DNA of 21,243 bases from a virus. The translations under genes and the position numbers were made by a program. Below, piece after piece: positions 5,632-21,243 of this stretch. Within the stretch, counting starts at the first letter, position 1; each line of letters starts with the position of its first letter. Where the stretch lies: the IMG/VR virus record IMGVR_UViG_3300042471_000742, positions 1 to 21,243 of that record; one strand, written 5' to 3'. Below the pieces are notes generated by a model that made no database searches, was not told the origin of the DNA, and worked only from the letters and a program-made list of their open reading frames with translations.

Positions 5632-5641
5632 ATTTCTTTAT

Positions 5642-5728: not shown

Positions 5729-5786
5729 TTTAAATGGTTACGAACTTAACAATTTCTTTAATAGTGTTATGAACTAAACACAATTA

Positions 5787-7411: not shown

Positions 7412-7638
7412 TGAAAGTTCTTCTTGAACGCAGTGGATACCGTTTTATTCAAGATGGTATTCTCGAAATCAATGGAAAACCAGATTATCGTATGCAAAAG
7501 AAAAATGAGTGGACCAAACGTTGGAACGACATTTATCTTTTTGATAACCAAATGCAGTGTCTAACTGCTATGGAGGATCACCAATATGCACGTTGGTTGG
7601 ATCCTGATAATCCTGGTGCCTATCGTCATTATACATAG
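7411..7638 (+). CDS. Small hypothetical protein (75 aa)
   Basis: A 75-residue protein starting MKVLLERSGYRFIQDGILEI, rich in aromatic residues (WTKRWNDIYLF, ARWLDPDNPGAYRHYT). Translation is probably coupled to the gene before: the TAATG junction overlaps by one base and a GAGG sequence lies 6-7 nt before the ATG. Soluble, single domain, no recognised family. Co-expressed early with the 71-aa protein. Confidence 0.76.
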   Translation: MKVLLERSGYRFIQDGILEINGKPDYRMQKKNEWTKRWNDIYLFDNQMQCLTAMEDHQYARWLDPDNPGAYRHYT

Positions 7639-7687
7639 TCTCGGTATGACTTAAAACTAGCCCTGGTCGGTGATGAAATCCCCCTTT

Positions 7688-7927
7688 ATGGCAAAATCTA
7701 ATATATTAAGGTATGTTGGCAACATTCTCCTTTTATCGGGATATTTTATTCTGCTTTGGGGAGATCCAAAAGTTGGATTGCTTGTAAAATGCTTTGGAAA
7801 TGCTTTTGTAGTTCCATTTGCAATCAAGTATAAGTTTTGGGACATTTTAGTATTGTGTGGTTTTTATGCTGCAATTGAGATTCCAAAATTACTTCAACTA
7901 TCCTTTCCTAGTTTGTTTGTAAACTAG
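7688..7927 (+). CDS. Small multi-pass membrane protein (79 aa)
   Basis: From ATG 7688 (MAKSNILRYVGNILL) the protein is almost wholly hydrophobic, with about three membrane segments: roughly residues 7-23 (VGNILLLSGYFILLWG), 30-47 and 50-70 (LCGFYAAIEIPKLLQL). Alternative starts at 7673 (ATG) and 7670 (GTG) add six or seven residues; none has a good ribosome site. No family recognised; comparable small membrane proteins are common in phage accessory regions. Confidence 0.6.
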   Translation: MAKSNILRYVGNILLLSGYFILLWGDPKVGLLVKCFGNAFVVPFAIKYKFWDILVLCGFYAAIEIPKLLQLSFPSLFVN

Positions 7928-7950
7928 GTGGTGGAGTCAAAATGACCCCT

Positions 7951-8030
7951 TATGCCCTCGTCGTATGGGCATTATAAATGACGACTGGTGCGGATGGAGG
8001 TTACTCCCGCCTGGTTTCTTATTTCCAGTC
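7951..8030 (+). ncRNA. Candidate structured noncoding RNA with possible pseudoknot
   Basis: The stretch 7928-8119 has no gene. Within it, ATGCCC/GGGCAT (7952-7957 with 7967-7972) forms a hairpin whose loop contains GTCGT (7960-7964), complementary to ACGAC at 7981-7985, allowing a pseudoknot. A second stem GACTGG/CCAGTC (7983-7988 with 8025-8030) encloses a bulged hairpin GCG-GAT-GGAG/CTCC-CGC (7990-8010). The two pairings of 7983-7985 exclude each other, so two alternative folds exist. A strong terminator follows at 8061. It may be an independent small RNA or a 3' UTR; TATAAATG at 7973 resembles a late box. Confidence 0.38.
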
Positions 8031-8060
8031 AAAGAATAAGTGGCGAGCCTGAATTGCGCG

Positions 8061-8088
8061 AGGAGGTTGACAACAACCTCCTTTTTTT
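8061..8088 (+). terminator. Strong intrinsic terminator before the glycan region
   Basis: AGGAGGTTG (8061-8069) pairs perfectly with CAACCTCCT (8074-8082) around a 4-nt loop ACAA and runs into T residues to 8088. It should isolate the tRNA and early region from the genes downstream. Confidence 0.92.
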
Positions 8089-8119
8089 GTAATATGTAAA
8101 CAATGGGGTTTCTTTATGA

Positions 8120-8860
8120 ATGAGTAAAAAAATTGTCGTTTCAAATTATAATTGGGACTTAAATTGGTTAAAAATTAGTTATGAACATGGATTTTCCGCA
8201 AAAGATATTGTGATTTATGATAGTAGTAATGATTTAAAAGATTGGTCTCATATTGGAAAAACAATTCAAGTTCCAAACTATGGCGGAAATCAGTATGGCA
8301 TACTAAAATTTATTGTTGACAATTATGATAATCTTCCTGATAATACCATTTTTATAAAAGGAAATATTCTTTTTCATGAAAAGATTAGAGAGAAAACTTA
8401 TTCTACTCTTGATAGGTTTGTTGAAACCTTACATTCTGTTGAATTGTTTAGTTGTTGGGTAGATCAATATTTGTTAGTCGATGACCATAGACACACAGAA
8501 TTTACACCATATGAAATTCTTAAAGATGGTCGTTTAATACAACCATCATCTCATTACTTAGGTGGAATATCATCAAATTACAAATATTTTTGTGATCATA
8601 GAGACCTTTTAAATTGGTGTTTTGAAAATCCACCAAAATCTGATCCTATAGAATTCATTCCAACTTCTAATTTTTCTGTCCCAAAAGAAAATATTTTAAA
8701 GTATAGTAAAAAATTGTACGAAAAATTACTTTCAATTCTTGATTATGAGCAATCTTACTTAGATTTTTTTGTAAAACAAAATTTGCCCCCAGCAGAATTG
8801 CATGTCTTAGAAAGAATTTTTTATTTTATTTGGAGCAAAAATCTAAAGGAAAAGGAATGA
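8120..8860 (+). CDS. DUF3431-like, glycosyltransferase-associated protein
   Basis: A 246-residue soluble protein resembling the DUF3431 family. Matching features: V-V-S-N-Y-N-W-D-L-N-W-L (residues 6-17), I-V-I-Y-D (30-34), V-P-N-Y-G-G-N-Q-Y-G (51-60), D-N-Y-D-N-L-P-D-N-T-I-F-I-K-G (67-81) and a C-terminal L-E-R-I-F-Y-F-I-W-S-K (about 229-239). DUF3431 proteins have a glycosyltransferase-like fold and often sit in polysaccharide loci, but their reaction is not established. It follows the terminator by 31 nt, no promoter is obvious in that gap, and 67 nt separate it from the gapless operon, so it may be transcribed by read-through or separately. The very AT-rich codon use matches the cassette after it. 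Confidence 0.62.
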   Translation: MSKKIVVSNYNWDLNWLKISYEHGFSAKDIVIYDSSNDLKDWSHIGKTIQVPNYGGNQYGILKFIVDNYDNLPDNTIFIKGNILFHEKIREKTYSTLDRFVETLHSVELFSCWVDQYLLVDDHRHTEFTPYEILKDGRLIQPSSHYLGGISSNYKYFCDHRDLLNWCFENPPKSDPIEFIPTSNFSVPKENILKYSKKLYEKLLSILDYEQSYLDFFVKQNLPPAELHVLERIFYFIWSKNLKEKE

Positions 8861-8888
8861 TATTAACATATTTGTATTATTTGGTTAT

Positions 8889-8896
8889 AATAAATA
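8889..8896 (+). promoter_or_regulatory. Late promoter box (AATAAATA) driving the glycan operon
   Basis: AATAAATA matches T4 late TATAAATA at seven of eight positions and lies 31 nt before the ATG at 8928, where a GGAG ribosome site stands 6 nt upstream of the start. It is the only promoter-like sequence I see heading the 13-gene operon. Confidence 0.6.
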
Positions 8897-8927
8897 AAAC
8901 GATTGAAAAGTCTAATTGGAGTTAGTA

Positions 8928-10061
8928 ATGACAGTTGTACCATACAAAGGATCTAAAATTTTTAATGACGATGGAACCTTTAGAGAAAAAGATGATATAG
9001 TTCAAGGTAGAAGTTTTAGTAGCAATTCAACAAAACTTCTAAAGCATTTGGATAAATTGGAGAACTTACAGAAAGGTAAACCACCTTCTCCAGTGATGGC
9101 TCATATTTCACTTACAAATGCTTGTAATTTGACTTGTTCTTTTTGTTGTTTTGCAAATAGAGATATTTCTGAAAAACTCCCTACTGAAAAAGTTCTTCAG
9201 GCACTTGATAGTTTCAAAAAAATTGGTGTGACTGGTGTTGAATTCACTGGTGGTGGAGAACCAAGTATCCATCCAGATTTTAAAAAGATTGTAAGATATG
9301 CAAAAGATCTTGGATTTAGTTTGGGTATTTGTACAAATGGTGCCAGATTTGGATCGGATAGGCCAATCAAAAAAGATATCGTAGAACTTTTTGATTGGGT
9401 TCGTCTTGGTATGTATGGTTTTTATGAAGGATATGATTATGATTTGACTGTGTTTGAAGGAACTAATTGCAAACCATCAGCTGCTTATGTTTGGGATGAG
9501 AATTTAGAAACTTCAAAGAACCCAAATATTACCGGTGAGTGGACTGATGTAAAAAATAAAAGAGTATTATCTGAAAAGTTTCAGACAACTGAAAACTTTA
9601 TTCGCATGTTAGATTGGGTTGAGGAAAACGGTATTCCTTGTAGGATTGCTTTTAATGCAATTAAAGATGTTAAAGAAACTGAAAAGGATATTGAAACCAT
9701 CCGTGGTGTTATTGAACATTATGAACAAGATCGTGGTAGAAAGTTGAAGTATGCTTTCCTATCAGATTTTAACTTTAAAGGTGAACGTAAAAACGATCAT
9801 TGCTATATGCACATGGTTAAACCATTCTTGTTTACCGATGGATACATTTATGCTTGCCCATCTGCTGAATTATCTATTGAAAACAATTATAATTATGTTC
9901 CGGAATCTCAATTTGCTGTTTGTGATATTGATGGTATAGAAGAATTCTATAATCAACCTCCAACACTTAGACATCATGCTTGTCATTATTGCAAGTATGC
10001 TATTCAAAACGAACTTATTGATGACATTCTCACTGAAACAGAACACAATGACTTTGCCTGA
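8928..10061 (+). CDS. Radical SAM protein with SPASM/Twitch-like C-terminal cysteines
   Basis: A 377-residue radical SAM enzyme. The [4Fe-4S]/SAM site is C66-N-L-T-C70-S-F-C73 (CxxxCxxC), followed by the SAM-binding T-G-G-G-E-P (107-112). Near the C terminus, C292-X12-G305-X4-C310 fits the first part of the SPASM signature (C-X9-15-G-X4-C), and C352-X2-C355 lies further on, so one auxiliary Fe-S cluster is likely. Such enzymes carry out dehydrogenation, epimerisation, C-C or thioether bond formation, or maturation of peptides and sugars. Heading a sugar operon suggests a radical step on a nucleotide sugar or modification of a protein or peptide acceptor. ATG 8928 is chosen for its GGAG site; TTG 8916 is weaker. 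It overlaps the methyltransferase gene by 14 nt. Substrate unknown. Confidence 0.88.
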   Translation: MTVVPYKGSKIFNDDGTFREKDDIVQGRSFSSNSTKLLKHLDKLENLQKGKPPSPVMAHISLTNACNLTCSFCCFANRDISEKLPTEKVLQALDSFKKIGVTGVEFTGGGEPSIHPDFKKIVRYAKDLGFSLGICTNGARFGSDRPIKKDIVELFDWVRLGMYGFYEGYDYDLTVFEGTNCKPSAAYVWDENLETSKNPNITGEWTDVKNKRVLSEKFQTTENFIRMLDWVEENGIPCRIAFNAIKDVKETEKDIETIRGVIEHYEQDRGRKLKYAFLSDFNFKGERKNDHCYMHMVKPFLFTDGYIYACPSAELSIENNYNYVPESQFAVCDIDGIEEFYNQPPTLRHHACHYCKYAIQNELIDDILTETEHNDFA

Positions 10062-10665
10062 TAACCACCTTTTTACTAAAGACTATTATGAGGATGGTGT
10101 AAGAAAACATATTTCTGGATATGAAAATTATAAGTGGATGCCCACAAGATCAATTCCAGAAGCACTTGATATTCAAAAAAACTTCAATTTTTCAACCTGT
10201 GTAGATTACGGATGTGCAAAAGGGTTTCTTGTGAATGCTCTTAGAATTGTTGGGTGCGATGCTTATGGTGAAGATATTAGTCAATATGCTGTAGAAAACT
10301 GTCATCCAAATGTTAGAGAATATGTCTCACTTCCTAATGACAAATATTATGATTTGCTTATTTGTAAGGATGTTCTTGAGCATGTTCATGAAGAAAATTT
10401 GCCAAGGGTTCTACAATCTTTGAGAAAAAAATCCGATCAGTTCTTTTTTGTCATTCCTTTAGGTGATGAGGATAGATTTAGAATTAGAGAATATGAAGTT
10501 GATATCACTCACGTCACTAAGAAAGATGAGGAGTGGTGGATAGACTTGTTCAAGTCTCAGGGATTTAAACTAACTAATTTTTCATACTCTTTAGGGTCAA
10601 TTAAAAAGAAATGGATTGAACAGTATCCTTATGGTAATGGATTTTTTATTTTAGAAAAACTATGA
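10048..10665 (+). CDS. Class I SAM-dependent methyltransferase
   Basis: A 205-residue Rossmann methyltransferase of the Methyltransf_23-like type. Motif I is C-V-D-Y-G-C-A-K-G-F (residues 51-60), motif II-like acidic residue in G-E-D-I-S (74-78), and the D-L-L-I-C-K-D-V-L-E-H-V segment is motif IV. The N-terminal H-I-S-G-Y-E-N-Y-K region is typical of sugar or lipid-linked methyltransferases. It would place a methyl group on O, N or C of a sugar or on an acceptor. The ATG at 10048 is chosen since a longer frame would start deep inside the radical SAM gene. Overlaps: 14 nt before, ATGA (4 nt) after. Confidence 0.85.
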   Translation: MTLPDNHLFTKDYYEDGVRKHISGYENYKWMPTRSIPEALDIQKNFNFSTCVDYGCAKGFLVNALRIVGCDAYGEDISQYAVENCHPNVREYVSLPNDKYYDLLICKDVLEHVHEENLPRVLQSLRKKSDQFFFVIPLGDEDRFRIREYEVDITHVTKKDEEWWIDLFKSQGFKLTNFSYSLGSIKKKWIEQYPYGNGFFILEKL

Positions 10666-11480
10666 AATATTCAATTTACGGTGGCACAGGATTTGTTGGT
10701 GGAAACTTTTGCAGAATGTATTCTGATATTACTCTACCAATCGAAAGAAATGAAAGAGATCCTCTGACGAATAAAGTCATTTATTTTATTTCAACCGTCC
10801 ATAATTATCATGTGTATGACGATCTTCACATTGATATTGACACAAATTTAAAAGTGTTGATGGATGTTTTGGAGAGATGTAGAGATCAAGATATTGTCTT
10901 TAATTTTATCAGCTCTTGGTTTGTTTATGGGAGATCAAGGCTTCCTGCAAGAGAAACTGATACTTGCGATCCAAAAGGATTCTATTCAATTACTAAAAGA
11001 GCAGCAGAACAGTTGTTGATTTCTTTCTGTGAAACATTTGGAGTGAAGTATCGTATTCTTCGGTTATCAAATGTTTATGGAGTGGGTGATCAAAAATCAT
11101 CTGCAAAGAAAAATGCAATTCAATATATGATTGATTTGCTTAAGAAAGGTGAGGATGTTAATTTGTATGAGGGTGGATATGTCTTGAGAGATCTTATGCA
11201 TGTTGAAGATATTTGTAGAGCAATCAAATTGGTTTGTGATCATGGGGAATACAATTCCATTTACAATATTGGTAGTGGCAAACCAGTGGCAATTCGTGCT
11301 ATAATGGAGCAAGCAAAACAATATCTAAATAGTCCGAGCAAATTTAATTTCATAGATACTCCAAAATTTCACGACATTGTGCAATCTCGTGATTTTTATA
11401 TGGATGTTTCTAAACTTAAATCACTTGGATTTGAATCACAAATTTCCCTGAATGACGGTATTAAAGAATTATGTCTTTGA
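10662..11480 (+). CDS. NAD(P)-dependent sugar epimerase/dehydratase (extended SDR)
   Basis: A 272-residue extended short-chain dehydrogenase. The nucleotide site is Y-G-G-T-G-F-V-G-G (residues 6-14), the catalytic pair Tyr108-x3-Lys112 occurs in F-Y-S-I-T-K-R, and R-L-S-N-V-Y-G is the family's structural motif. These enzymes epimerise, dehydrate or reduce nucleotide sugars. It is shorter than GalE proteins (about 330), so 4-reductase or epimerase activity on a dNDP/CDP sugar would fit well, but the substrate cannot be read from sequence. It lies directly before the E1-like dehydrase gene, overlapping by 10 nt, so a joint deoxysugar pathway is plausible. Confidence 0.88.
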   Translation: MKYSIYGGTGFVGGNFCRMYSDITLPIERNERDPLTNKVIYFISTVHNYHVYDDLHIDIDTNLKVLMDVLERCRDQDIVFNFISSWFVYGRSRLPARETDTCDPKGFYSITKRAAEQLLISFCETFGVKYRILRLSNVYGVGDQKSSAKKNAIQYMIDLLKKGEDVNLYEGGYVLRDLMHVEDICRAIKLVCDHGEYNSIYNIGSGKPVAIRAIMEQAKQYLNSPSKFNFIDTPKFHDIVQSRDFYMDVSKLKSLGFESQISLNDGIKELCL

Positions 11481-12793
11481 ATCATTTAATTTCTGATTTT
11501 ATCAAAACTGCAAAAGAAAAGGACGATAATCTTTTTCCATTTATTGCTAATAAAAAAGAGTTTGATAAAGAAAAAGATTCTGTTTATTACTCTGGTCCCT
11601 ATTGGGATGATCAAGAAGTTGAAGCACTTCTCTATAGTGTCCTGAAAGGAAAGTGGCTTTCTTCTGGCGAAGCAGTCAATAAGTTTGAAAGAGAATTTTC
11701 TAAAAAGTTTAACAAGGAATATTCTGTGATGGTCAACTCTGGATCATCTGCAAATCTTGTTATGATTGCAGCACTCAAAAAATACTTTGGGTGGGCAGAT
11801 GGTGATGAGATTATCGTATCGTGTGTAGGATTTCCAACAACGATTGCACCCATTGTCCAGAATGGATTGGTGCCTGTGTTTGTGGATATTTCTTGGGATG
11901 ACTTGAATTGGGATCTGAGTGAGATTGAGAAAAAGATTACACCCAAAACCAAAGCAGTATTTTCCTCTCCTGTGCTTGGTAATCCCTATGACATTGAAAA
12001 ACTTAACGCAATTTGTGAGAAGTATTTCCTTGAATTGATTGCGGATAACTGTGATAGCCTTGGAAGTAAGTGGAAAGGAAAGTATCTGACTGATTATGCG
12101 GTTGCTTCATCCTGCTCCTTCTATCCAGCACACCATATCACCACAATTGAAGGTGGTATGGTTTCATCCAATATTAAAGAAATTGTAGATCTGGCACGTA
12201 GTTTTGCTTGGTGGGGTCGTGCATGTTATTGTGTGGGGCAGCAAAATCTTCTGTCAAATGGTGTGTGTGGAAAGAGATTTGATCGTTGGTTGAGTGGATA
12301 CAATGAGACTGTAGATCATAAGTATGTCTTCTCAAACATGGGATACAATTTGAAACCCACTGATTTCCAGGGTGCAATTGGATCTGTGCAACTTAAAAAA
12401 TTTGATGAGATTCATCAAATTCGTAGAGCAAATAAGGAAAGATTGGATGAGATTTTTCAACGTATCCCTGGAGTTCGCACTTTAACAGAATTGCCCGATG
12501 CTGAAACAAGCTGGTTTGGCACACCTTTTGTTTGCGATTCAATCACCCTCAAAAGAGATCTTGTTAAATTTCTTGAGAAGAATAAGATTCAAACTCGCAA
12601 TTACTTTGCTGGTAATGTTTTGATGCATCCAGCTTACAAACATCTTGATGATTATATTCATTATCCAAATGCCAATCAAGTCCTTGATTTTGTTTTCTTT
12701 ATCGGATCATCTCCAACTATCAATGACGATATGATTCTTTATATTGAAGAAGTGGTTGATAAATTTATTACTGTTGCACATCATCCTGTATGA
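11471..12793 (+). CDS. E1/RfbH-like CDP-sugar 3-dehydrase (DegT/DnrJ/EryC1/StrS fold)
   Basis: A 440-residue DegT-family PLP/PMP enzyme. The segment S-F-Y-P-A-H-H-I-T-T-I-E-G-G-M (216-230) has histidine where aminotransferases carry the PLP-binding lysine, the hallmark of sugar 3-dehydrases (E1, RfbH, ColD). Four cysteines, C194-X57-C252-X1-C254-X11-C266, resemble the C-X57-C-X1-C-X7-C motif that ligates the [2Fe-2S] cluster of E1 (AscC/DdhC/RfbH), and C-G-K-R-F follows as in that family. E1 removes the 3-hydroxyl of CDP-4-keto-6-deoxyhexose with an E3 reductase to begin 3,6-dideoxyhexose synthesis. The last spacing is longer here. No E3 reductase or CDP-sugar synthesis gene is in the window. 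ColD lacks the Fe-S cysteines and is the less likely alternative. Confidence 0.85.
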   Translation: MSLNHLISDFIKTAKEKDDNLFPFIANKKEFDKEKDSVYYSGPYWDDQEVEALLYSVLKGKWLSSGEAVNKFEREFSKKFNKEYSVMVNSGSSANLVMIAALKKYFGWADGDEIIVSCVGFPTTIAPIVQNGLVPVFVDISWDDLNWDLSEIEKKITPKTKAVFSSPVLGNPYDIEKLNAICEKYFLELIADNCDSLGSKWKGKYLTDYAVASSCSFYPAHHITTIEGGMVSSNIKEIVDLARSFAWWGRACYCVGQQNLLSNGVCGKRFDRWLSGYNETVDHKYVFSNMGYNLKPTDFQGAIGSVQLKKFDEIHQIRRANKERLDEIFQRIPGVRTLTELPDAETSWFGTPFVCDSITLKRDLVKFLEKNKIQTRNYFAGNVLMHPAYKHLDDYIHYPNANQVLDFVFFIGSSPTINDDMILYIEEVVDKFITVAHHPV

Positions 12794-13623
12794 AAATCTA
12801 CGATTGCTTTCAATTCTTTAATGAGTTGGATCTTCTTGAGATTCGACTTAATGTTTTAAACGATCATGTGGATTATTTTGTTTTGACAGAATCTACAGTT
12901 ACCTTTTCTGGATTGAATAAACCTCTTTATTATCAAGAGAATAAAGATCGATTTGAAAAATTCAACGATAAAATTATTCATGTCGTAGTTGAAGATACTC
13001 CAGATGGAAATCCATTTGAGAGAGATGTCTTTCAAAAGAATGCGATCATTCGTGGTCTTCAAGATTGTGAAGATGATAATATCATTTTGACGAGTGATCT
13101 TGACGAAATTCCAGACCCAGAAATTGTCGATCAGCTCATTGACGTTTGTGAGAATGATAAAGTTTATCATTTTGCTCAAGATCTCTTTTACTATTATTTG
13201 AATCTTAAAGAAGTTTCAGGTAACCTTCTTTCCTATACTGGAGAGTTTAATAATGTTGCAGAAAAGAAATGGCTTGGATCAAAGATGTGCAAGTATCAAT
13301 TTCTCAAACAGCATAATGTTAATGAGTTAAGAGCACCACACATGAAAGAGTGTGGATATCGTATTTCTCCTGGTGGATGGCACTTTACTTATGTTGGAAG
13401 TGATGGAAGTATGACTCCAGAGCAAAAGATTGCTCACAAAATTGAGTGTGCTGCCCACCAAGAATTTAATAATGATGCTGTAAAAAGTAGAATTATTGAG
13501 AATGTAAAATCAAACAAAGACATTTTCTATCGTCCTTCGGAGTTTGAAGTTGTTAAAATTGATGGATCATTTCCTCAATACATCAGAGAAAATCAAGACA
13601 AGTATCAGTATATTATCAAATGA
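12790..13623 (+). CDS. GT17-family glycosyltransferase (MGAT3-like)
   Basis: A 277-residue protein of glycosyltransferase family 17, whose known members transfer GlcNAc beta-1,4 to a mannose core. Characteristic segments: M-K-I-Y-D-C-F-Q-F-F-N-E-L-D-L-L-E-I-R (1-19), V-D-Y-F-V-L-T-E-S-T-V-T-F-S-G (27-41), and T-S-D-L-D-E-I-P-D-P (101-110) with a DxD-like acid group for the metal and nucleotide sugar. The acceptor in a phage-infected cyanobacterium is unknown. ATGA overlap (4 nt) with the 3-dehydrase gene and 4 nt with the next gene. Confidence 0.85.
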   Translation: MKIYDCFQFFNELDLLEIRLNVLNDHVDYFVLTESTVTFSGLNKPLYYQENKDRFEKFNDKIIHVVVEDTPDGNPFERDVFQKNAIIRGLQDCEDDNIILTSDLDEIPDPEIVDQLIDVCENDKVYHFAQDLFYYYLNLKEVSGNLLSYTGEFNNVAEKKWLGSKMCKYQFLKQHNVNELRAPHMKECGYRISPGGWHFTYVGSDGSMTPEQKIAHKIECAAHQEFNNDAVKSRIIENVKSNKDIFYRPSEFEVVKIDGSFPQYIRENQDKYQYIIK

Positions 13624-14513
13624 TTATCAACGAAATTAAGCACGGACAGGGGTTAGGGAATCAACTCTTCTGTTATGTTACCACAAGATGTATTGCCAAA
13701 GATAAAGGATATGACTTTGGATTTCTTGGCACCGAAAACTTAGGAGATCCAAGATTTAATTCTAAAGGATTATATTTTATGGATTTGGATTTAGGAAAAG
13801 ATCCAATAGAAGTTGAAAATACTTACACTGAAAAATCAAAAAGAATTAAGCTGAATACTTGCCATCATGATATGACGCATGGTTGTGATGTAAGTTTATA
13901 TGATTCTGATCTCGCAAATGTAAAAGATAATACTTTGATTGAAGGTATTATGCAGGATGAAAGATACTTCTATCATCATCTTGATGATATTAAACAGTGG
14001 TTAAAACTCAAACCAGAATATGATACTTATGAATATCACCAAGATGATATTTGTATTATGAATTTTCGTGGAGGAGAATATCGAAGTCTTCGTGAATTGT
14101 ATCTAACAAGAGATTATTGGATCAATGCAATTAAACATATGATGAAGATTAATCCAGAAATGGATTTTCGAATCGTGACGGAAGATATATCTGCAGCAAA
14201 TGATATGTTTCCTGAGATTGAGGCATATCATTTTGACATTGCTAAAGATTATGCGATCATCAAAAATGCAAAGTATTTAATTCTTTCCAATTCAACTTTC
14301 GGATGTTTTCCTGCATTCACAAGTGAAACTGCAGAATATGTGATTGCACCAAAGTATTGGGCACGACATAATGTGTCCGATGGATATTGGGCAACGGGGC
14401 AAAATTTATATCAAAATTGGATGTGGCAAGATCGTGAAGGGTTGCTTTTTGACTATGAGCAATGCTATAATGAGTTTGAAAATTATAAAGTAGAATCTGA
14501 TATGTATGCTTGA
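13620..14513 (+). CDS. GT11-like fucosyltransferase homologue (divergent)
   Basis: A 297-residue protein resembling alpha-1,2-fucosyltransferases. The N-terminal G-Q-G-L-G-N-Q-L-F-C-Y (9-19) matches the family G-x-L-G-N-Q-L-F-Q-Y, and I-L-S-N-S-T-F-G-C-F (221-230) matches the C-terminal S-N-S-S-F motif. The donor-binding H-x-R-R-G-D-Y motif appears as N-F-R-G-G-E-Y (148-154), so the second arginine and the aspartate have changed. It may use another donor, or have lost activity. A canonical GT11 protein is encoded two genes downstream, suggesting an ancient duplication. Overlaps: 4 nt before, 8 nt after (ATGCTTGA). Confidence 0.72.
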   Translation: MIINEIKHGQGLGNQLFCYVTTRCIAKDKGYDFGFLGTENLGDPRFNSKGLYFMDLDLGKDPIEVENTYTEKSKRIKLNTCHHDMTHGCDVSLYDSDLANVKDNTLIEGIMQDERYFYHHLDDIKQWLKLKPEYDTYEYHQDDICIMNFRGGEYRSLRELYLTRDYWINAIKHMMKINPEMDFRIVTEDISAANDMFPEIEAYHFDIAKDYAIIKNAKYLILSNSTFGCFPAFTSETAEYVIAPKYWARHNVSDGYWATGQNLYQNWMWQDREGLLFDYEQCYNEFENYKVESDMYA

Positions 14514-15171
14514 TCTATCAAATGTAACTCTACTTGCAATTACATCAGTTAAGTTTGATGAGCATATTGCTTCTCTTCAAAGGAGTATGCAGTGTGCAAA
14601 GTTTGCAAAAGTAGTTTTGGCAACTCACGAAAAACCAAATAATCTTCCTGATGATATTGTATGGGAAGATATTGGTAAGAAGATTAATTATGAGCAATTC
14701 AGTGAATATTGCATTTATCATATGACAGATCATGTGCATACTGATTTTTGTTTGCATGTACATGATGATAGTTGGATTCTTCGTCCAGATCTTTGGATTG
14801 AGGAATTCTTTGACTATGATTATATTGGTGCTCCATGGCCTTTAAGTTATGAAGCATTTGTGGATCCATTTGGTAGACACATTCGTGTGGGTAATGGTGG
14901 ATTTTCTCTTCGTAGTAAAAGATTGATGGATGTGCCGAAGCATATTCATATTCCGTTTGAAGTGAATGAAGGAAACTTCTATAAGCATATGAATGCCAAT
15001 TCATACAATGAAGATGGAAACATTTGTGTGCATAATCGACATCTCTATGAATTGATGGGTTGTAAGTTTGCACCCGTAGAAGTTGCTGCTCGTTTTTCTA
15101 CTGAAAATAATGTCCCAGAAACCGTGCAATCTTTCGGTTTTCATAAACGTTTACCTACTTGGGCTCAATGA
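14506..15171 (+). CDS. DUF5672-family putative glycosyltransferase
   Basis: A 221-residue protein matching the pattern of DUF5672: H-V-H-D-D-S-W (84-90), Y-D-Y-I-G-A-P-W-P (104-112), V-G-N-G-G-F-S-L-R-S (128-137) and E-D-G-N-I-C (about 168-173), with F-G-F-H near the C terminus. Members have a GT-A-like fold and are found in polysaccharide loci; HDD could be the metal-binding acid motif and the GNGG-FSLR the donor loop, but no reaction is established. Overlaps the previous gene by 8 nt and the next by 4 nt. Confidence 0.75.
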   Translation: MLDLSNVTLLAITSVKFDEHIASLQRSMQCAKFAKVVLATHEKPNNLPDDIVWEDIGKKINYEQFSEYCIYHMTDHVHTDFCLHVHDDSWILRPDLWIEEFFDYDYIGAPWPLSYEAFVDPFGRHIRVGNGGFSLRSKRLMDVPKHIHIPFEVNEGNFYKHMNANSYNEDGNICVHNRHLYELMGCKFAPVEVAARFSTENNVPETVQSFGFHKRLPTWAQ

Positions 15172-15920
15172 TTACATTTAATAGTCTTGGACAACTTGGA
15201 AGACTTGGAAATCAACTCTTTCAATACGCATCAACAAAAGGAATTGCTGCAAAAAATAATCAAGAGTTTATGGTCCCAAAGACGGAGCTCTTTAATCATT
15301 TTGAAATGTCTGGTGCTAATATTGGTAGAAGAAATTCCCCAGTATTTCAAGAAAACGATTTTGATTTTGATGAAGAGTTGTTTACAAAGTTTCAATATGA
15401 CGTAGATCTTTTTGGTTATTATCAATCAGAAAAATACTTCAAGCATATTGAAGACGATATTCGCAAAGACTTTGCTTTTAAGAAGCATATCTACGGACCA
15501 TGCTGGGAAATGATTCAAGAAATTCCAGAAAGAATGAGCTTGCATGTAAGACGAGGAGACTATCTGAAAAAACCAGATTGTCATCCACCTTGCACTGTTG
15601 AATATTATGAGCAAGCACTTTCTAAGTTTGATGATAGTATTCCTGTATTAATCTTTAGTGATGATCCAGAATGGTGTAGAGAGCAGGAGTTATTTTCTTC
15701 AGATCGTTTTATGATTTCTGAAGGAAACTCTGTGGAAGTTGATCTTTGTTTGATGGCAATGTGTCAGCATCATATTCTTTCAAACAGCTCACTTGCCTGG
15801 TGGGGTGCTTGGTTGGCAAATAGTCAATCGGTGGTTGCACCTCAACGGTGGTTTGGTCCTTCTCTTCCTCATAATACTGATGATCTCTATCTTGAGCATT
15901 GGGAGTTGATTGATGCCTGA
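15168..15920 (+). CDS. GT11 alpha-1,2-fucosyltransferase-like
   Basis: A 250-residue GT11 protein with all family motifs: G-R-L-G-N-Q-L-F-Q-Y (11-20), the GDP-fucose-binding L-H-V-R-R-G-D-Y (125-132), F-S-D-D-P-E-W (163-169) and I-L-S-N-S-S-L-A-W-W-G-A (203-214). It would transfer fucose or a related GDP-deoxyhexose alpha-1,2 to galactose or another hexose. ATG 15168 overlaps the upstream stop as ATGA; a TTG nine bases earlier is unnecessary. GDP-fucose would have to come from the host or genes outside the window. Confidence 0.88.
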   Translation: MITFNSLGQLGRLGNQLFQYASTKGIAAKNNQEFMVPKTELFNHFEMSGANIGRRNSPVFQENDFDFDEELFTKFQYDVDLFGYYQSEKYFKHIEDDIRKDFAFKKHIYGPCWEMIQEIPERMSLHVRRGDYLKKPDCHPPCTVEYYEQALSKFDDSIPVLIFSDDPEWCREQELFSSDRFMISEGNSVEVDLCLMAMCQHHILSNSSLAWWGAWLANSQSVVAPQRWFGPSLPHNTDDLYLEHWELIDA

Positions 15921-16638
15921 ATTTTCTATTTGCATTCCAACCTACGAATATAAAGGGAGAGGTGTTGAGTTTCTTTCTCATCTCTTAGATACACTTGAAA
16001 AGCAAACTCTTGATGACTATGAAGTCATCATTTCCGATCATAGTCAAGATGATGAGATTCAAAATTATCTTTCTAATCAAGGAGATAGATTTGATATTAA
16101 GTATTATCGAAACGAAAATAAGAGAGGAAATCTTTCAAATAATACAAACCAGTGTCTTTCAATGTCTACTGGAAGAATTATTAAACCAGTATATCAAGAT
16201 GATTTCTTTTATATAGACACTGCTCTGGAAGAAATTAAAAAAGCATTTGATACTGAAGAGTGTCAATGGTTGGCTACAGCATGTAATCATTATGATGATG
16301 AGTTGGAAATTTACTGTAGAGATTTTTATCCAAACTTTGATGAGCCAGAAGCAACATTATTTGGAAAAAATTTAATCAGTTGTCCAACAGTTATTGCATT
16401 TCTTAATGATGCAAAAATTGAATTTGATGAAAACCTAAACATGTTGATGGATTGTGAATTTTATTATAGAATGTATAAAAAATACGGCAAACCATTTTTG
16501 CTAAATCAAATTTTAATGACCAATAGATCTCACTCTGGGCAAAGCCAAAAATCAAAAGAGTTTGAAGAAAAAATTCAAGAGGAAATGATGTATTGCTATG
16601 ACTTATTCAACAAGCAAAATTATAATCTGGGGACATAA
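15913..16638 (+). CDS. GT2-family glycosyltransferase
   Basis: A 241-residue GT-A glycosyltransferase of family 2: N-terminal F-S-I-C-I-P-T-Y-E-Y (4-13), I-I-S-D-H-S-Q-D-D (39-47) for the nucleotide, R-G-N-L-S-N-N-T-N (71-79), and the metal-binding acids in V-Y-Q-D-D-F (93-98). It probably extends the glycan by inverting transfer. ATG 15913 lies in the 8-nt overlap with the GT11 gene. The end overlaps the next start by 41 nt, the longest overlap of the operon. Confidence 0.87.
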   Translation: MPEFSICIPTYEYKGRGVEFLSHLLDTLEKQTLDDYEVIISDHSQDDEIQNYLSNQGDRFDIKYYRNENKRGNLSNNTNQCLSMSTGRIIKPVYQDDFFYIDTALEEIKKAFDTEECQWLATACNHYDDELEIYCRDFYPNFDEPEATLFGKNLISCPTVIAFLNDAKIEFDENLNMLMDCEFYYRMYKKYGKPFLLNQILMTNRSHSGQSQKSKEFEEKIQEEMMYCYDLFNKQNYNLGT

Positions 16639-17464
16639 ATTACATTCCCACACACATTCTTATATTCATAATTCATATTTCAAAGCATTTAAGTCTTTGG
16701 GATATGATGTTTTTTGGTTTGATCATACAGACGATGTTTCTGGGTTTGACTTTTCAAATTGTATTTTCTTTACAGAAGATCAAGTTAAACAAGGAATGCC
16801 TTTGAGAAATGATTGCAAGTATATTGCACATCATATTTCATCAAGTTTTTTTGATGGTATTGATCATGTATTAAATCTTGGCAATTATATTGTTGACGTT
16901 GAAAAGTTTGATAAGGTAAAGGATCAAACTTACTTTGATTCCAAGACTAAAACCCTATATCAATGTTGGGCAACAGATTTGCTTCCTGACGAAATTGATG
17001 AAAAAGATTATTGTAAGTTTGATGAATCGAAGGAATATGTGCATTATATTGGATCTTTGTATGAAGAAGGTCTTGAATTTGCTCAAGAATTTGGATCAAT
17101 CCTGCAAGATCAGAATAAACAACTTAGGTTATATCGTGGAGTAAGTGATGAAGAAAATCGTGAATTGATTCGAGATTCGTTTCTTTGTCCTGACTTTCGA
17201 AATTATCATCACATTAAAGTCGGATATATACCATGCAGGATTTTTAAAACGATTAGTTATGGACAAGTTGTTGGCACAAACTCGATCAATGTTAAAAGAG
17301 TCTTTGGTGATTATGTAGTCTTTGGATCAAATCCACAAGATCTTTATCAAAATATGTTAGACTCTTTATCTGCGAAAAAAGTTTACACGCCGCAAGCAAT
17401 GTTGTTTATAAAAAATAATCATACTTACGTAAACCGTGTTAATACAATCATGGAGGTATTATGA
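16598..17464 (+). CDS. Probable GT-B-type glycosyltransferase (unclassified)
   Basis: A 288-residue protein starting MTYSTSKIIIWGHKLHSH. The N-terminal part has the alternating strand/helix pattern of a Rossmann-like domain (F-K-S-L-G-Y-D-V-F-W-F-D, about 31-42), and the C-terminal G-Y-I-P-C-R-I-F-K-T-I-S-Y-G (about 209-222) resembles the donor site of GT-B or CgeB-like proteins, where an acidic/aromatic loop is followed by a small-residue turn. No named family fits cleanly. The long overlap with the GT2 gene means the first 13 codons are in both frames. ATGA junction with the epimerase gene. Confidence 0.6.
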   Translation: MTYSTSKIIIWGHKLHSHTHSYIHNSYFKAFKSLGYDVFWFDHTDDVSGFDFSNCIFFTEDQVKQGMPLRNDCKYIAHHISSSFFDGIDHVLNLGNYIVDVEKFDKVKDQTYFDSKTKTLYQCWATDLLPDEIDEKDYCKFDESKEYVHYIGSLYEEGLEFAQEFGSILQDQNKQLRLYRGVSDEENRELIRDSFLCPDFRNYHHIKVGYIPCRIFKTISYGQVVGTNSINVKRVFGDYVVFGSNPQDLYQNMLDSLSAKKVYTPQAMLFIKNNHTYVNRVNTIMEVL

Positions 17465-18360
17465 GATCCATAGTTACTGGAGGACATGGATTTATTGGAT
17501 CAAATATTGTTGATCGACTCATCGATCTTGGGCATGAAGTTTTTGTAATTGATAATAAATCATCCAAGAGTAATCAGAATTATCATACAAATAGTCAAGC
17601 AAAAAACTTTTATCTTGACTTGTCAAATTCAATTAATTTTCCTATAATTAAGGAATTGTGTGATGAAGCAGATTATGTTTTTCATTTAGCAGCAGATGTT
17701 TCAATACAATATTGTATTGAAAATCCAATGCAATCATATTCAAATAACATCAATGCAACCTACCATATTTTAGAAGCAGCACGTTTAGCAAAAGTTAAAC
17801 GAGTTGTGTTTTCTTCCACATCTGCACTTTATGGAAGCACTGATAAAGTTTGTGTCGAAACTATGCCAGTTGAAACACTGAATACTTATTCTCTCTCTAA
17901 ATTTTCTGGAGAGAATTTAATGAAATTGTATTTTGATCTTTATGGACTTAGGACTGTTTCTCTTCGGTATTTCAATGCTTATGGTCCAAGGCAACCCGCA
18001 TCAGGACAATATGCACCTGTCATTGGAATTTTCAAAAGACAAAAAGATAACGGTGAGAGTTTAACGATTGTTGGGGATGGAAATCAAACTCGTGATTTTA
18101 TTCATGTTTCTGATATCGTAAATGCAAATATCAAAGCAGCAACAATTGACACGAATACATATGGTGAAGTGTATAATGTTGGCACTGGAGTCAATTATTC
18201 CATTAAAAAAATTGCGAGCATGATATCTGATAATCACATACATATTCCACCACGTCCAGCTGAAGCACGATTTAGTTGTGCTAATATTCACAAAATTAAA
18301 TCTGTTTATGAATGGACTCCTCAGGTAAATCTTGAAACTTGGATTAAAGAAAATCTATGA
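17461..18360 (+). CDS. GalE-like NAD-dependent UDP-sugar 4-epimerase
   Basis: A 299-residue extended SDR. Visible: T-G-G-H-G-F-I-G-S-N (6-15) for NAD, D-N-K-S-S-K after beta-2, H-L-A-A-D-V (75-80), S-S-T-S-A-L-Y-G (118-125), catalytic Tyr143-x3-Lys147 in T-Y-S-L-S-K, and L-R-Y-F-N-A-Y-G-P-R-Q. This is the motif set of UDP-glucose/GlcNAc 4-epimerases of the GalE/WbpP type. It would supply UDP-galactose or UDP-GalNAc for the transferases. A GGAGG ribosome site stands just before the ATG, inside the previous gene, so it may be well translated. ATGA overlaps at both ends. Confidence 0.88.
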   Translation: MRSIVTGGHGFIGSNIVDRLIDLGHEVFVIDNKSSKSNQNYHTNSQAKNFYLDLSNSINFPIIKELCDEADYVFHLAADVSIQYCIENPMQSYSNNINATYHILEAARLAKVKRVVFSSTSALYGSTDKVCVETMPVETLNTYSLSKFSGENLMKLYFDLYGLRTVSLRYFNAYGPRQPASGQYAPVIGIFKRQKDNGESLTIVGDGNQTRDFIHVSDIVNANIKAATIDTNTYGEVYNVGTGVNYSIKKIASMISDNHIHIPPRPAEARFSCANIHKIKSVYEWTPQVNLETWIKENL

Positions 18361-19355
18361 AAATCTTACATTTATCTCATCATATTGGATGTTTTAAGGA
18401 TCAAGAATATGTCTTGAATAATCTTGGACATGAAGTTACTTCTTTAAAAATCCTTGAATTGGGAGAAACTCTAACGGTTATTAATCCAATTGAGTCATTT
18501 AGAATGAGTGCTCCTTTAGCAAGAGTTGTGTGGAGTGAAGTCAAAGATTATTTAAATTCTTTTGATGTGGTATTGACATCAGATACTGCTCCAATTAGTA
18601 GAATTATTCTGGAAAACATTGAAGAATTTACTGGAAAACTTGTCATCTGGATTTGTAATAGGTATAACTATGAACTGTTTGGTGACACTGAATGGACAAA
18701 ACTTTTTGATAAATCTAATGACTTTCCAAATGTAAAAATTGTTCCATATACTTTGTTTGAAAAAGTCTGGGCAGAAGCAAATGGAATTCGTACAGAAAAC
18801 TGGGAGGTCATTACTCCTCTTGGAAAATGGGCAGCAACGAGTGCTCCTGTAGAAAAAAATAATGATGTTTGGGTTGGGATGTATTGGAATGATAATAAAT
18901 TTATGAACCTCAAACAAACTCTTCTTGATATGGGGGTAAAGGCTCAAGGTGGTGATGGTGAGAGATACTCTGACATCAATGAACTCAAAAGACATTATGC
19001 AATGATTACCTTGCCAGATGCTCCATCTAAACTGATTTGTTTTGAGTTAATTCATCTTGGAATTCCCGCACTTCTTCCAGCAAAACCCCTGATGAAGCAA
19101 TTGAAAAATACTGAAGGATATGGAATTCCTTTAGCACCTGCTCAGTTCGATGACAATATCATTGATGTATTAGAATGGTATGATCCAGAACTTGAAGATT
19201 GTAGATATTACTATAATAGTTTTGAAGAAATTCCGAAATTAATTACAAATATTAAACACAGTCAAGATGTCATTCGTGAAAATTGTGAGTATCATTCACA
19301 AAGATTGGAAGAAAAAATCTTAGGACAGTGGAAAAATATTTACGATAATCTATGA
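18357..19355 (+). CDS. Probable GT-B glycosyltransferase
   Basis: A 332-residue protein starting M-K-I-L-H-L-S-H-H-I-G-C-F, the usual first strand and glycine loop of a GT-B N-terminal domain, then L-G-H-E-V-T-S-L. C-terminal elements include V-W-V-G-M-Y-W-N-D-N (about 171-180) and a donor-site region L-P-D-A-P-S-K-L-I-C-F-E-L-I-H-L-G-I-P-A (about 219-238), where the glutamate of the F-E-x-I-x-x-G-I-P motif is the usual nucleotide-sugar ligand. Family is uncertain (GT1/GT4-like). ATGA junctions on both sides place it in the operon. Confidence 0.65.
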   Translation: MKILHLSHHIGCFKDQEYVLNNLGHEVTSLKILELGETLTVINPIESFRMSAPLARVVWSEVKDYLNSFDVVLTSDTAPISRIILENIEEFTGKLVIWICNRYNYELFGDTEWTKLFDKSNDFPNVKIVPYTLFEKVWAEANGIRTENWEVITPLGKWAATSAPVEKNNDVWVGMYWNDNKFMNLKQTLLDMGVKAQGGDGERYSDINELKRHYAMITLPDAPSKLICFELIHLGIPALLPAKPLMKQLKNTEGYGIPLAPAQFDDNIIDVLEWYDPELEDCRYYYNSFEEIPKLITNIKHSQDVIRENCEYHSQRLEEKILGQWKNIYDNL

Positions 19356-20002
19356 AACTCAACGAAATTAAAACTTATTACATTAATCTTGATAAGGATG
19401 AAGAGAAGAAGGAGAGTATGGAAAGGATGCTCTCTGAACTTGGATTTGATTATGAAAGATTTCCTGGAGTTCAGGCAGAATGGGGTTGTGAAAAAAGTCA
19501 TCATAAACTTCTTTCCGAAGGATTAAAGGCACCGTTCATTGTTCTTGAAGATGATTGTGTTTTGAAAAATCAAGTGATTGATCTTGGAGTTCCCGAGGAC
19601 ATTGATTTTATGTATCTTGGAATTTCTGCTTTTGGATATTATAATGGAAATATTACTGGAGTTTTATATAAACAAATGACAGATGAAGTGAGTAGAGTAT
19701 ATAATATGCTTTCTACTCATGCAATGTTGTATCTGTCAGATAACTATGCTAACATGGTAAAAAATATCGCATATTATTGTGGATATAAAGCAAATCAACA
19801 TTTTGATAAATCAATTGCTGAAATGGCAAAGTATTATGAAGTTTATGCTTTAAACAATCCAATGTTTTACCAAGATACTTATAACAAAGAAGCAACTTTT
19901 TATGATTTAAGAAAATATGAGATTTCAAAAAATATTGACCAAGTAAAAGAACCAAGTATTGTTAGACCTGAACCAATTAAATTCGATGACCAAAGCAATT
20001 AA
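19352..20002 (+). CDS. GT25-family glycosyltransferase, first copy
   Basis: A 216-residue protein of the LPS-type glycosyltransferase family 25: Y-Y-I-N-L-D-K-D-E-E-K-K (9-20), G-C-E-K-S-H-H-K-L-L (45-54) and the metal site V-L-E-D-D-C (64-69). Family members add galactose or similar sugars to LPS outer core or capsule. It is shorter than its neighbour and the region after the catalytic core is diverged. Overlaps: 4 nt before and 17 nt after. Confidence 0.83.
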   Translation: MKLNEIKTYYINLDKDEEKKESMERMLSELGFDYERFPGVQAEWGCEKSHHKLLSEGLKAPFIVLEDDCVLKNQVIDLGVPEDIDFMYLGISAFGYYNGNITGVLYKQMTDEVSRVYNMLSTHAMLYLSDNYANMVKNIAYYCGYKANQHFDKSIAEMAKYYEVYALNNPMFYQDTYNKEATFYDLRKYEISKNIDQVKEPSIVRPEPIKFDDQSN

Positions 20003-20798
20003 TACTTCAACAATCAAAAAGAAAATCAAAGGATTTGGTCCAATTTATTGGATTAATCTTGATACTGATGTTGAAAGAAAGGAAAAGGCTGAAGAACTTT
20101 TTAAGTACTACGATATTCCCAATACTCGAATTTCTGGATTTGATGGCAGAAAAGAGGATTTGAGTGTTTATCTTGAGGGTAATGTTCCACCTCAAATGAA
20201 CTCTGGTGAAGTTGGTTGTACCTTGTCTCACCTCAAAGCACTCAAATACTTTTTAGAGGAAACAAATGATGATATTGCAATCATTTGTGAAGATGATATT
20301 GTCTTTGACACCATAGAATATTGGCCCTTTAATTGGAAACTTTTTATGGAAAGTCTTCCATATGATTGGGATTGTTTGCAACTATCAATTACAAGTACGG
20401 GCAATCTTGTTGGAAATTTGCACCCAAGAATTCTTACAAATTTTTGTACAGTGTGTAATGTTTTTACAAGAAGGTATGCAGAAAAACTTGCTCATTTTCA
20501 TTTTAGAGGTGATAAGTATAAAATTGATAATGGTGTAAAACCGAGAGCAGTTGCGGATGAAATTCTGTTTAATGCTGGTAAAACATATTCAATGCCATTG
20601 TTTGTCTATCGTTATGATTTTAGTTCTAACATTCATCAAGATCATGTAGAAGTTTTTCACAAACATAATGTAGAAGCAATTATGAAATTCTGGCAAGAAA
20701 GTGGGTATCACGTTCCTATCAGTAACTTGTTGGACTATGATTATTATGATCACTATATGAAACCAGTTACTAAACCCTCTATGGGAAGTTCTTCTTGA
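19986..20798 (+). CDS. GT25-family glycosyltransferase, second copy
   Basis: A 270-residue GT25 protein: I-Y-W-I-N-L-D-T-D-V-E-R-K (20-32), G-E-V-G-C-T-L-S-H-L-K-A (74-85), the acid triad I-I-C-E-D-D-I (99-105). It shares the same three motifs in order with the preceding gene, so the pair probably arose by duplication and later split acceptor or donor specificity. ATG 19986 gives a 17-nt overlap; an upstream TTG would run far into the previous gene. It is the last gene of the operon; 102 nt follow before the porin, and they contain a new late promoter but no terminator that I can see. Confidence 0.87.
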   Translation: MTKAINTSTIKKKIKGFGPIYWINLDTDVERKEKAEELFKYYDIPNTRISGFDGRKEDLSVYLEGNVPPQMNSGEVGCTLSHLKALKYFLEETNDDIAIICEDDIVFDTIEYWPFNWKLFMESLPYDWDCLQLSITSTGNLVGNLHPRILTNFCTVCNVFTRRYAEKLAHFHFRGDKYKIDNGVKPRAVADEILFNAGKTYSMPLFVYRYDFSSNIHQDHVEVFHKHNVEAIMKFWQESGYHVPISNLLDYDYYDHYMKPVTKPSMGSSS

Positions 20799-20820
20799 CT
20801 GATCCCAAAAAAACTGTTAA

Positions 20821-20828
20821 GATAAATA
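20821..20828 (+). promoter_or_regulatory. Late promoter box (GATAAATA) for the porin gene
   Basis: GATAAATA differs from TATAAATA at the first base only. It lies 72 nt before the porin start, so the mRNA would have a leader of about 65 nt containing the hairpin at 20850. Confidence 0.6.
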
Positions 20829-20849
20829 CCGTGAAGTGACGAATGCCGC

Positions 20850-20865
20850 AACTATTTGCATAGTT
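20850..20865 (+). other. Leader hairpin of the porin gene
   Basis: AACTAT-TTGC-ATAGTT is a perfect 6-bp hairpin with a 4-nt loop in the untranslated leader. It may protect the 5' end of the transcript; no ribosome site overlaps it. Confidence 0.45.
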
Positions 20866-20900
20866 ACTCAAATGTCGTTTAGTACTAAAAAACAAACTTT

Positions 20901-21243
20901 ATGAAACTCAATCAACTGATGCTTGCACCTGTTGCTCTGGGTATGGTTGCTCCTGTTGCTGCGAATGCCGCAGAACTGAATATGGTAGCAGTCAATCAAT
21001 ACTCCGAGAATCAGGTTACAAGTATTTCTCAATTCTCTGATGTCCGTCCTACCGATTGGGCATATCAGGCACTTAACAACCTTGTAGATCGTTATGGTTG
21101 TGTTGCTGGTTATCCTAACGGCACCTTTGGTGGTGGTAAGGCGATGACTCGTTTTGAGGCAGCTGCTCTTCTGAATGCTTGCCTTGATCGTGTATCAGAA
21201 ACCACTGACGAACTTCGTCGTCTTCTTAATGAATTTCAAGGAG
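20901..21243 (+). CDS. Cyanobacterial-type SLH-domain outer-membrane porin, N-terminal part (3' truncated by window)
   Basis: The first 114 residues of a porin of the cyanobacterial iron-uptake/SomA type. A signal peptide (1-23, MKLNQLMLAPVALGMVAPVA then A-N-A) is followed by a linker and one SLH domain (about 45-97): F-S-D-V-R-P-T-D-W-A-Y-Q-A-L, Y-G-C-V-A-G-Y-P-N-G-T-F, A-M-T-R-F-E-A-A-A-L-L-N-A-C-L-D-R-V. The paired cysteines (Cys67, Cys94) are conserved in this family. The SLH domain binds peptidoglycan-linked polymer and anchors the beta barrel in the outer membrane. After it a coiled-coil segment begins (E-L-R-R-L-L-N-E-F). Codons such as CTG, CGT, GCT and ACC stand out from the AT-rich cassette before it, suggesting a later acquisition from the host. 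The barrel lies outside the window. Confidence 0.85.
   Translation, partial: MKLNQLMLAPVALGMVAPVAANAAELNMVAVNQYSENQVTSISQFSDVRPTDWAYQALNNLVDRYGCVAGYPNGTFGGGKAMTRFEAAALLNACLDRVSETTDELRRLLNEFQG

Follow-up and report, generated by a model that had tools for sequence, protein, structure and literature searches.

Do the long runs of lipopolysaccharide (LPS)-type genes in cyanophages encode working enzymes, or are they stuffer DNA? A stuffer function has been raised for other cyanophage LPS clusters, and the choice is left open in the text of Sullivan et al. available to us (2010, PMC3037559). The question returns with IMG/VR virus record IMGVR_UViG_3300042471_000742, whose 21,243 nt (hereafter the window) contain a sugar-gene operon at 8928–20798. 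The operon holds 14 genes in 11,871 nt, all on the plus strand, with no intergenic base. An earlier note, made from the letters of this DNA alone, counted thirteen genes; its overlap list and gapless extent are exact at all 13 junctions, and 13 junctions separate 14 genes, as many as its own list of families has entries. Operons of this kind are known; this one has more control sequence, and shows selection more clearly, than that note suggested. It is probably a working set of surface-glycan genes that T4-like cyanophages exchange as a cassette.

All 14 genes appear to be under purifying selection in the pairs tested. The ratio of nonsynonymous to synonymous substitution (dN/dS) is 0.020–0.218 across the genes (38 pairs with relatives of at least 80% identity, rows below this being dropped), with nrdB as a yardstick at 0.05–0.10; genes 9, 11, 12, and 13 are represented by one pair each, and a DUF3431 gene ahead of the operon had no pair. 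A close pair with one relative (L005; dS 0.20–0.37) gives 0.046–0.218 for genes 3–11, and gene 13 against another (L007) gives 0.133 at a dS of 0.67. Weighing against this reading, dS exceeds 1 in 17 of the 38 pairs, whose ratios are therefore approximate; every pair for genes 1, 2, 12, and 14 is of this sort. Low ratios in all 14 genes nevertheless speak against the stuffer-DNA suggestion for this cassette.

A comparison of gene order, which the earlier note had proposed as a check, recovers shared blocks (genes 3–11 and genes 1–2) together with swaps, losses, and insertions at gene boundaries. L005 carries genes 3–11 at 88–98% identity, lacks genes 1–2, and has a diverged gene 12 (60%); L006 and L007 have an additional short-chain dehydrogenase/reductase (SDR) gene between genes 7 and 8. 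The mosaic relatives are L005–L008, L050–L055, and L061. Genes 1 and 2 travel as a pair, often into very different cassettes, gene 2 following gene 1 at a distance of about 100 nt or less in 34/36 relatives with room. Because relatives swap, drop, and insert genes at gene boundaries, no fixed gene set seems to be needed. In a megablast search with 8000–21243, named phages match in pieces only: SynMITS9220M01 over genes 1–2 (80%), S-SRM01 over the start of a porin gene (90.5% identical), and S-CAM1 over about 50 nt of a wcaG RNA. The cassettes of S-B43, S-H68, RB11-B, and SynMITS9220M01 share the E1 gene (about 70% identity) or genes 1–2 (89%, 84%) and have mostly overlapping junctions where these were counted, but their gene sets and order are different. 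In the T4-like cyanophages P-SSM2, S-SM2, and S-SSM7, hli03 and tRNA genes lie close to large LPS-type gene runs (Sullivan et al. 2010, PMC3037559, as far as available); the window is like these clusters in the type and setting of its run, the two features compared. Its own traits are a site bounded by the wcaG RNA with a composite terminator/promoter and by the porin gene, and the measured selection.

The junctions overlap, in order, by 14, 4, 10, 4, 4, 8, 4, 8, 41, 4, 4, 4, and 17 nt (4 nt at 7/13). In six other cyanophage glycan cassettes 52/62 junctions overlap (S-H68, 16/20; SynMITS9220M01, 15/18), a count in which some S-CAM7 genes taken as glycan carry only a hypothetical annotation; among the non-glycan genes of three annotated records the figure is 42/94 (p 8e-7 for the difference). 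These counts come from annotation tables, over stretches picked by hand and skipping opposite-strand genes. The chance of 13/13 is p ~3e-5 at the rate of the other genes and p ~0.10 at that of the glycan cassettes; the packing is therefore real, yet typical of its class, the window standing at the upper end of the range. The DUF3431 gene, 67 nt upstream of gene 1, is a fifteenth glycan-type gene and probably belongs to the glycan unit.

The gene families predicted earlier were largely recovered (Table 1). Pfam supports the radical SAM enzyme, the methyltransferase, the SDRs, DUF5672, and the glycosyltransferase (GT) families GT17, GT11 (gene 8), GT2, and GT25; the nearest solved structure places gene 4 in the E1 type, and gene 10 is GT-B by its predicted fold, with Foldseek matches to Gtf3, SenB, and BshA (best E 3.5e-5, TM-scores near 0.5). 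GT11 for gene 6 comes down to one PHROG named "glycosyltransferase", and GT-B for gene 12 was set aside, no family support being found. The model of gene 1 has low-to-moderate confidence (predicted local distance difference test, pLDDT, 76) and matches PqqE, DesII, BlsE, and viperin-type enzymes; it is plausible that the protein acts on a nucleotide sugar. Pfam recognised no nucleotidyltransferase, flippase, polymerase, or ligase in the 14 genes, so that the phrase "full sugar-making and assembly line" was too strong; precursors and export would have to come from the host. Judged from its predicted proteins, the gene set is mosaic and incomplete. Two points count against the reading as a functional cassette: gene 12 has no Pfam, PHROG, or NCBIfam match, and, the window being a fragment of 21 kb, the missing pathway genes may be located in other parts of the genome.

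Table 1. Features of the glycan locus and its borders, in window coordinates
Feature	Position	Strand	Evidence or remark
Three small genes: u1 (7196–7411), u2 (7411–7638), u3 (7670–7927)	7196–7927	+	Relatives precede wcaG whatever the cargo
Tentative hairpin plus half-domain, similar to the 5′ half of wcaG and overlapping the end of u3	7905–7950	+	Sequence
wcaG RNA (RF01761)	7952–8054	+	Rfam 79 bits (gathering score 42), E 1.4e-13
PeSL-like composite	8060–8095	+	Hairpin 8060–8083 plus T-tract; -35 TTGACA (8067–8072) in hairpin; -10 TAATAT (8090–8095)
DUF3431 gene, the first one downstream of the embedded promoter	8120–8860	+	Pfam PF11913, E 3.3e-7
Overlapping early/late promoter	8863–8896	+	TTAACA-17-TATAAT (8863–8891) plus late motif AATAAATA (8889–8896)
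Gene 1, radical SAM enzyme	8928–10061	+	PF04055, 7.5e-15; fold matches radical SAM/SPASM, DesII-type
Gene 2, methyltransferase	10048–10665	+	PF13489, 5e-12
Gene 3, SDR, often adjoining E1	10662–11480	+	PF01370, 1.1e-31
Gene 4, E1-type pyridoxamine phosphate/[2Fe-2S] sugar 3-dehydrase	11471–12793	+	Best PDB match 3bcx, E 6.8e-76
Gene 5, GT17 glycosyltransferase	12790–13623	+	PF04724, 3.3e-26
Gene 6, glycosyltransferase, GT11-like unproven	13620–14513	+	PHROG 2644, 1.4e-14; no Pfam match
Gene 7, DUF5672	14506–15171	+	PF18922, 1.4e-19
Gene 8, GT11 glycosyltransferase	15168–15920	+	PF01531, 7.6e-28
Gene 9, GT2 glycosyltransferase	15913–16638	+	PF00535, 3.5e-12
Gene 10, GT-B-fold glycosyltransferase	16598–17464	+	Predicted model, pLDDT 91
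Gene 11, SDR, GalE-like	17461–18360	+	PF01370, 9.7e-56; galE model 155.9 bits, below cut-off 262.3
Gene 12, family unassigned	18357–19355	+	dN/dS 0.04 against L007
Gene 13, GT25-type	19352–20002	+	PF01755, 2.8e-6
Gene 14, GT25-type	19986–20798	+	PF01755, 1e-10; PHROG 2835, 8.5e-86
Late-promoter motif before porin	20821–20828	+	GATAAATA; motif also upstream of S-SRM01 porin
SLH-domain porin start, downstream border of cassette	20901–21243	+	SLH 2.6e-11; S-SRM01 porin region 90.5% identical

Gene 4, which Pfam also supports as a DegT-type protein, is closer to the E1 enzyme of the CDP-dideoxyhexose pathway (3bcx) than to ColD (2gms, E 1.4e-53). Aligned to 3bcx, it has the same histidine in place of the active-site lysine (SFYPAHH) and four cysteines in matching places (C194, C252, C254, and C266), the putative ligands of the [2Fe-2S] cluster; it differs in a four-residue insertion before the last cysteine, the last spacing being 11 residues as against 7. 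Within the 14 genes no E3 reductase-type family and no CDP-glucose pathway gene was recognised, gene 11 scoring 46.1 on the CDP-glucose 4,6-dehydratase model TIGR02622 (cut-off 278.45) and gene 3 having no match listed; neither the 4,6-dehydratase nor the E3 reductase of a CDP-3,6-dideoxyhexose pathway was thus found there. Two further results weigh against the functional-cassette reading, in which gene 4 would act as an E1 enzyme: gene 4 reaches 379.7 bits on the RfbH model (NCBIfam NF011936, cut-off 423), and the dehydratase model passes its curated cut-off in 0/40 E1-bearing records, with weaker matches in 28/40. A complete CDP-dideoxyhexose pathway was rejected on the latter count. An obligate pairing of E1 with the gene 3-type SDR is likewise ruled out: among 47 relatives with room the two adjoin in 23, lie one gene apart in 3, and are not nearby in 21. 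On a possible host origin of E1, a genome scan gave four loci: Prochlorococcus single-cell contigs hold three of them and an actinobacterial metagenome bin the fourth, and cassette homologues are few in their vicinity. The E1 relatives L118–L120 (63–65%) are on Prochlorococcus single-cell contigs, which may be of host or phage.

The window content reads as that of a T4-like cyanophage: the end of nrdA, nrdB, a tail-lysozyme protein, nine tRNA genes, and a Dps-like gene, followed by small genes, the sugar genes, and the start of the porin gene. The nrdB and Dps neighbours are homologous to Kyanoviridae records and, with the Pfam families, bear out the earlier placement of a glycan operon in a T4-like cyanophage; the window also has the run of nucleotide-sugar and glycosyltransferase genes near tRNA genes that characterises a cyanophage LPS/exopolysaccharide cassette. 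A porin gene lies behind the cassette both here and in L009. The complete porin of S-SRM01 (L003:16126–17586) matches the NCBIfam "iron uptake porin" model NF033921 (286 bits, cut-off 100). The tRNA-Ser (TGA) at 5641–5729 slightly exceeds the Rfam cut-off for tRNA-Sec (49 vs 47 bits) and is most likely a long-armed tRNA-Ser.

Control by one late promoter, as first proposed, holds in part. NATAAATA, the late motif reported for S-PM2 (PMC2984593, in the sections available), is found at 8889–8896, and ATAAATA lies 38 nt before gene 1 in the window and 36–44 nt before it in eight relatives. Thirteen relatives with gene 1, a part of the total, were examined for this string: the eight with a spacer of 30–49 nt before gene 1 all carry it; in the other five, gene 1 is within 12 nt of another gene, and ATAAATA occurs at 85–95 nt inside that gene in three and is lacking in two. 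The plus strand of 8000–21243 has only two copies, before gene 1 and at 20822 before the porin gene, against a Markov expectation of 3.1, so position rather than number is the evidence. A generic promoter scan of the control region gave 65 sites against 62.9 in shuffles; with no excess, the evidence is conservation and position, and all promoters named here are sequence matches. Single-promoter control was rejected as incomplete: the late motif overlaps the -10 box of a sigma-70 pair (8863–8891, -35 at 8863), and another sigma-70-type promoter is embedded in a hairpin (8060–8095) upstream of the DUF3431 gene. The overlap of late motif and -10 box agrees with a proposal that middle transcription in RB49 and S-PM2 uses early and late promoters that overlap; quantitative PCR of a few S-PM2 genes gave no middle profile (both PMC2984593, as far as its text was available).

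The embedded promoter belongs to a composite element directly behind the wcaG RNA, with 17 nt between TTGACA and TAATAT. A scan of viral contigs with a core pattern of wcaG, which took no account of glycan genes, matched at least 120 stretches; all copies pooled gave 150 pattern hits and, after removal of identical 140-nt stretches, 119 unique wcaG copies. Downstream tables cover the 112/119 copies with at least 400 nt downstream, and upstream comparisons the 102/119 with at least 900 nt upstream. The first recognised downstream gene is glycan-type in 92/112 copies, leaving 20 others. A terminator follows 90/92 of the glycan-preceding copies and 7/20 of the others (Fisher p 2e-10), and an embedded promoter 79/92 and 4/20 (p 2e-8), both p values being optimistic as copies are related. 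These promoter counts use a lenient score threshold of 8; raising it to 9 gives 74/92 and 4/20, and to 10, 28/92 and 1/20. When only copies from the pattern scan are taken, 90 have room and 76 of these precede glycan genes, 74/76 with a terminator and 63/76 with an embedded promoter. Exact TATAAT occurs within 26 nt behind the hairpin in 65/92 distinct tails (Markov mean 9.0, maximum 16), and the -10 box begins 5–7 nt past the hairpin in 74/82 composites scoring at least 9. The terminator stems vary widely and keep their pairing (76 distinct among 101). Composite hairpins make up 84/105 hairpins near wcaG and 32/154 elsewhere (5.3 Mb of strand sequence, loci partly overlapping); several of the 32 away from wcaG lie ahead of apparent small early gene starts. 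Three points count against the reading of the cassette and its control given here: 13/92 glycan-preceding copies have no scored embedded promoter, the glycan label is assigned by BLAST to hand-labelled proteins, and the S-PM2 copy of wcaG is outside the scored set.

An early sigma-70 promoter overlapping an intrinsic terminator hairpin is the arrangement of the PeSL elements, which are said to have been described by Arbiol in 2010 and Comeau in 2014 and reportedly mark variable, module-exchange regions of T4-type phages. The window shows the same fusion of early promoter and stem-loop terminator, but here behind wcaG, tied to glycan cassettes, and in cyanophages; the upstream side of wcaG is largely fixed and its cargo variable, a pattern that bears on module recombination at such elements. 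PeSLs were judged unlikely to explain the S-PM2 ORFanage (PMC4503421, in the portion available). A terminator/promoter geometry was not found described for wcaG in the accessible parts of the literature examined, where a whole-word search for PeSL misses plurals.

The surroundings of wcaG bear on its role. At least one homologue of u1–u3 lies within 1.8 kb upstream of 70/77 copies with glycan cargo and 21/25 with other or unrecognised cargo. The distance from the preceding stop codon to wcaG has a median of 28 nt (quartiles -2 and 76) and is at most 60 nt in 78/113 copies. No sigma-70 enrichment was seen in the 200 nt upstream of wcaG (7.92 vs control 7.93), and the signal is enriched downstream (9.26 vs 7.68). 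With mostly fixed upstream neighbours, a short distance from stop codon to wcaG, and no upstream promoter enrichment, wcaG seems better placed to be the 3′ end of the transcript from upstream than a glycan leader; against this, the gap exceeds 60 nt in 35/113 copies, enough to hold a separate wcaG promoter. In several phages with no annotated glycan gene in the 5 kb downstream, wcaG precedes a tRNA, hli, tail fibre, or S-layer gene: the next annotated gene in S-PM2 is a "putative S-layer protein", and in L148 wcaG, tRNA-Gly, and a porin gene follow in succession with no glycan gene between. In S-CREM1 (L127:4971–5869), wcaG, manA, and an abiF-type RNA are annotated as interleaved with tRNA genes within 0.9 kb.

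The RNA fold itself appears real. Three nucleotides after CGCC are complementary to a segment in the following 25 nt around the last stem in 119/119 copies, with six pair types, whereas re-dealt partners (1000 re-dealings) give 64.9 on average and 76 at most; this covarying pseudoknot supports a genuine fold. A simple pattern for the half-domain just upstream fits 40/118 unique copies with room, and a second weak wcaG match occurs in five other records (54 of 88 loci scanned), so it is possible that the two together form a tandem RNA larger than the Rfam model.

A working model can be drawn from these predictions. Transcription from the u1–u3/tRNA region would end at the hairpin behind wcaG, and the sigma-70 promoter within that hairpin would start an early transcript of the DUF3431 gene and the operon; the overlapping early/late promoter would then keep genes 1–14 on through the middle and late phases, with overlapping stop and start codons coupling translation. 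The enzymes would take host nucleotide sugars, the putative E1 acting with the gene 3 SDR to remove the 3-hydroxyl of a 4-keto-6-deoxy sugar; other cassette enzymes would modify sugars and methylate them, and between seven and nine transferases would carry out the attachment. Host LPS is the most likely acceptor, so that the infected cell would present an altered surface. The wcaG RNA would have an effect only when transcription reads through the terminator, unless it serves as the 3′ end of the upstream transcript or as an RNA processed from it.

Other explanations of the cassette fare less well. That the genes are stuffer DNA, although raised in print for other cyanophages (PMC3037559, in the part available), is very improbable and was rejected by the dN/dS test: all 14 ratios resemble those of nrdB, even with 17/38 pairs saturated, and dedicated promoter motifs are present. 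The glycan might instead decorate the virion (tail or capsid). The late motif before gene 1 would be expected for assembly genes, and GT17 and GT25 families can modify proteins; early-type promoters are also present, however, the cassette ends at an outer-membrane porin gene, and Pfam recognised no structural gene within it, which makes this destination unlikely. The identity and destination of the glycan are in either case inferred. The earlier proposal that each overlapping pair is fixed by a need for equal amounts of protein draws on the 4-nt overlaps and on the cohesion of genes 1 and 2; it is rather improbable, relatives inserting, losing, and reordering genes and overlaps being the norm in such cassettes.

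What wcaG does at this probably working, exchangeable cassette is a separate matter. The wcaG RNA, as generally pictured, lies in the leader (5′ untranslated region) of the downstream gene's own mRNA. Weinberg (2010, PMC2864571, in the text available) marked it as probably cis-regulatory and probably a riboswitch that appears to regulate downstream genes; the window copy likewise lies ahead of exopolysaccharide-type genes, but its placement suits the 3′ end of a unit lying upstream, and a terminator and a second promoter separate it from the glycan genes. No ligand is named in the parts of the wcaG literature found. A classical riboswitch gating the terminator, with a sugar or energy-state ligand deciding read-through from upstream into the cassette, would suit that published label, the compact pseudoknotted fold, and a hairpin that starts 3–18 nt behind the scanned wcaG end in 101 copies. 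The 5′ stem of the terminator pairs weakly in excess with its own wcaG (15.25 vs 14.74, reached by 27/2000 permutations), but the 3′ stem shows no excess (1935/2000), and the permutations ignore relatedness; the embedded promoter would bypass such a switch, and some copies with no scored terminator sit before a tRNA gene (S-CAM1, S-CREM1, S-CAM3, and L148). A gating riboswitch is accordingly somewhat doubtful. We put forward tentatively, as a reading that may prove wrong, that wcaG is not an exopolysaccharide leader; it may be a terminator-coupled 3′-end RNA marking a fixed exchange site with constant upstream genes, behind which entire glycan cassettes, each led by a promoter within the terminator hairpin, would be swapped.

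For the question of working versus stuffer LPS clusters (Sullivan 2010, PMC3037559, as far as available), the selection test points to working genes in the cassette of this window. The terminator/promoter geometry offers a testable picture of where transcripts end and start, and of the fixed place of wcaG against its changing downstream neighbours. If wcaG does mark an exchange site, its reported link with exopolysaccharide and high-light genes would reflect the docked cargo and not sensing by the RNA; and if the cassette is what it appears to be, it would show cyanophages exchanging host-surface programmes as units.

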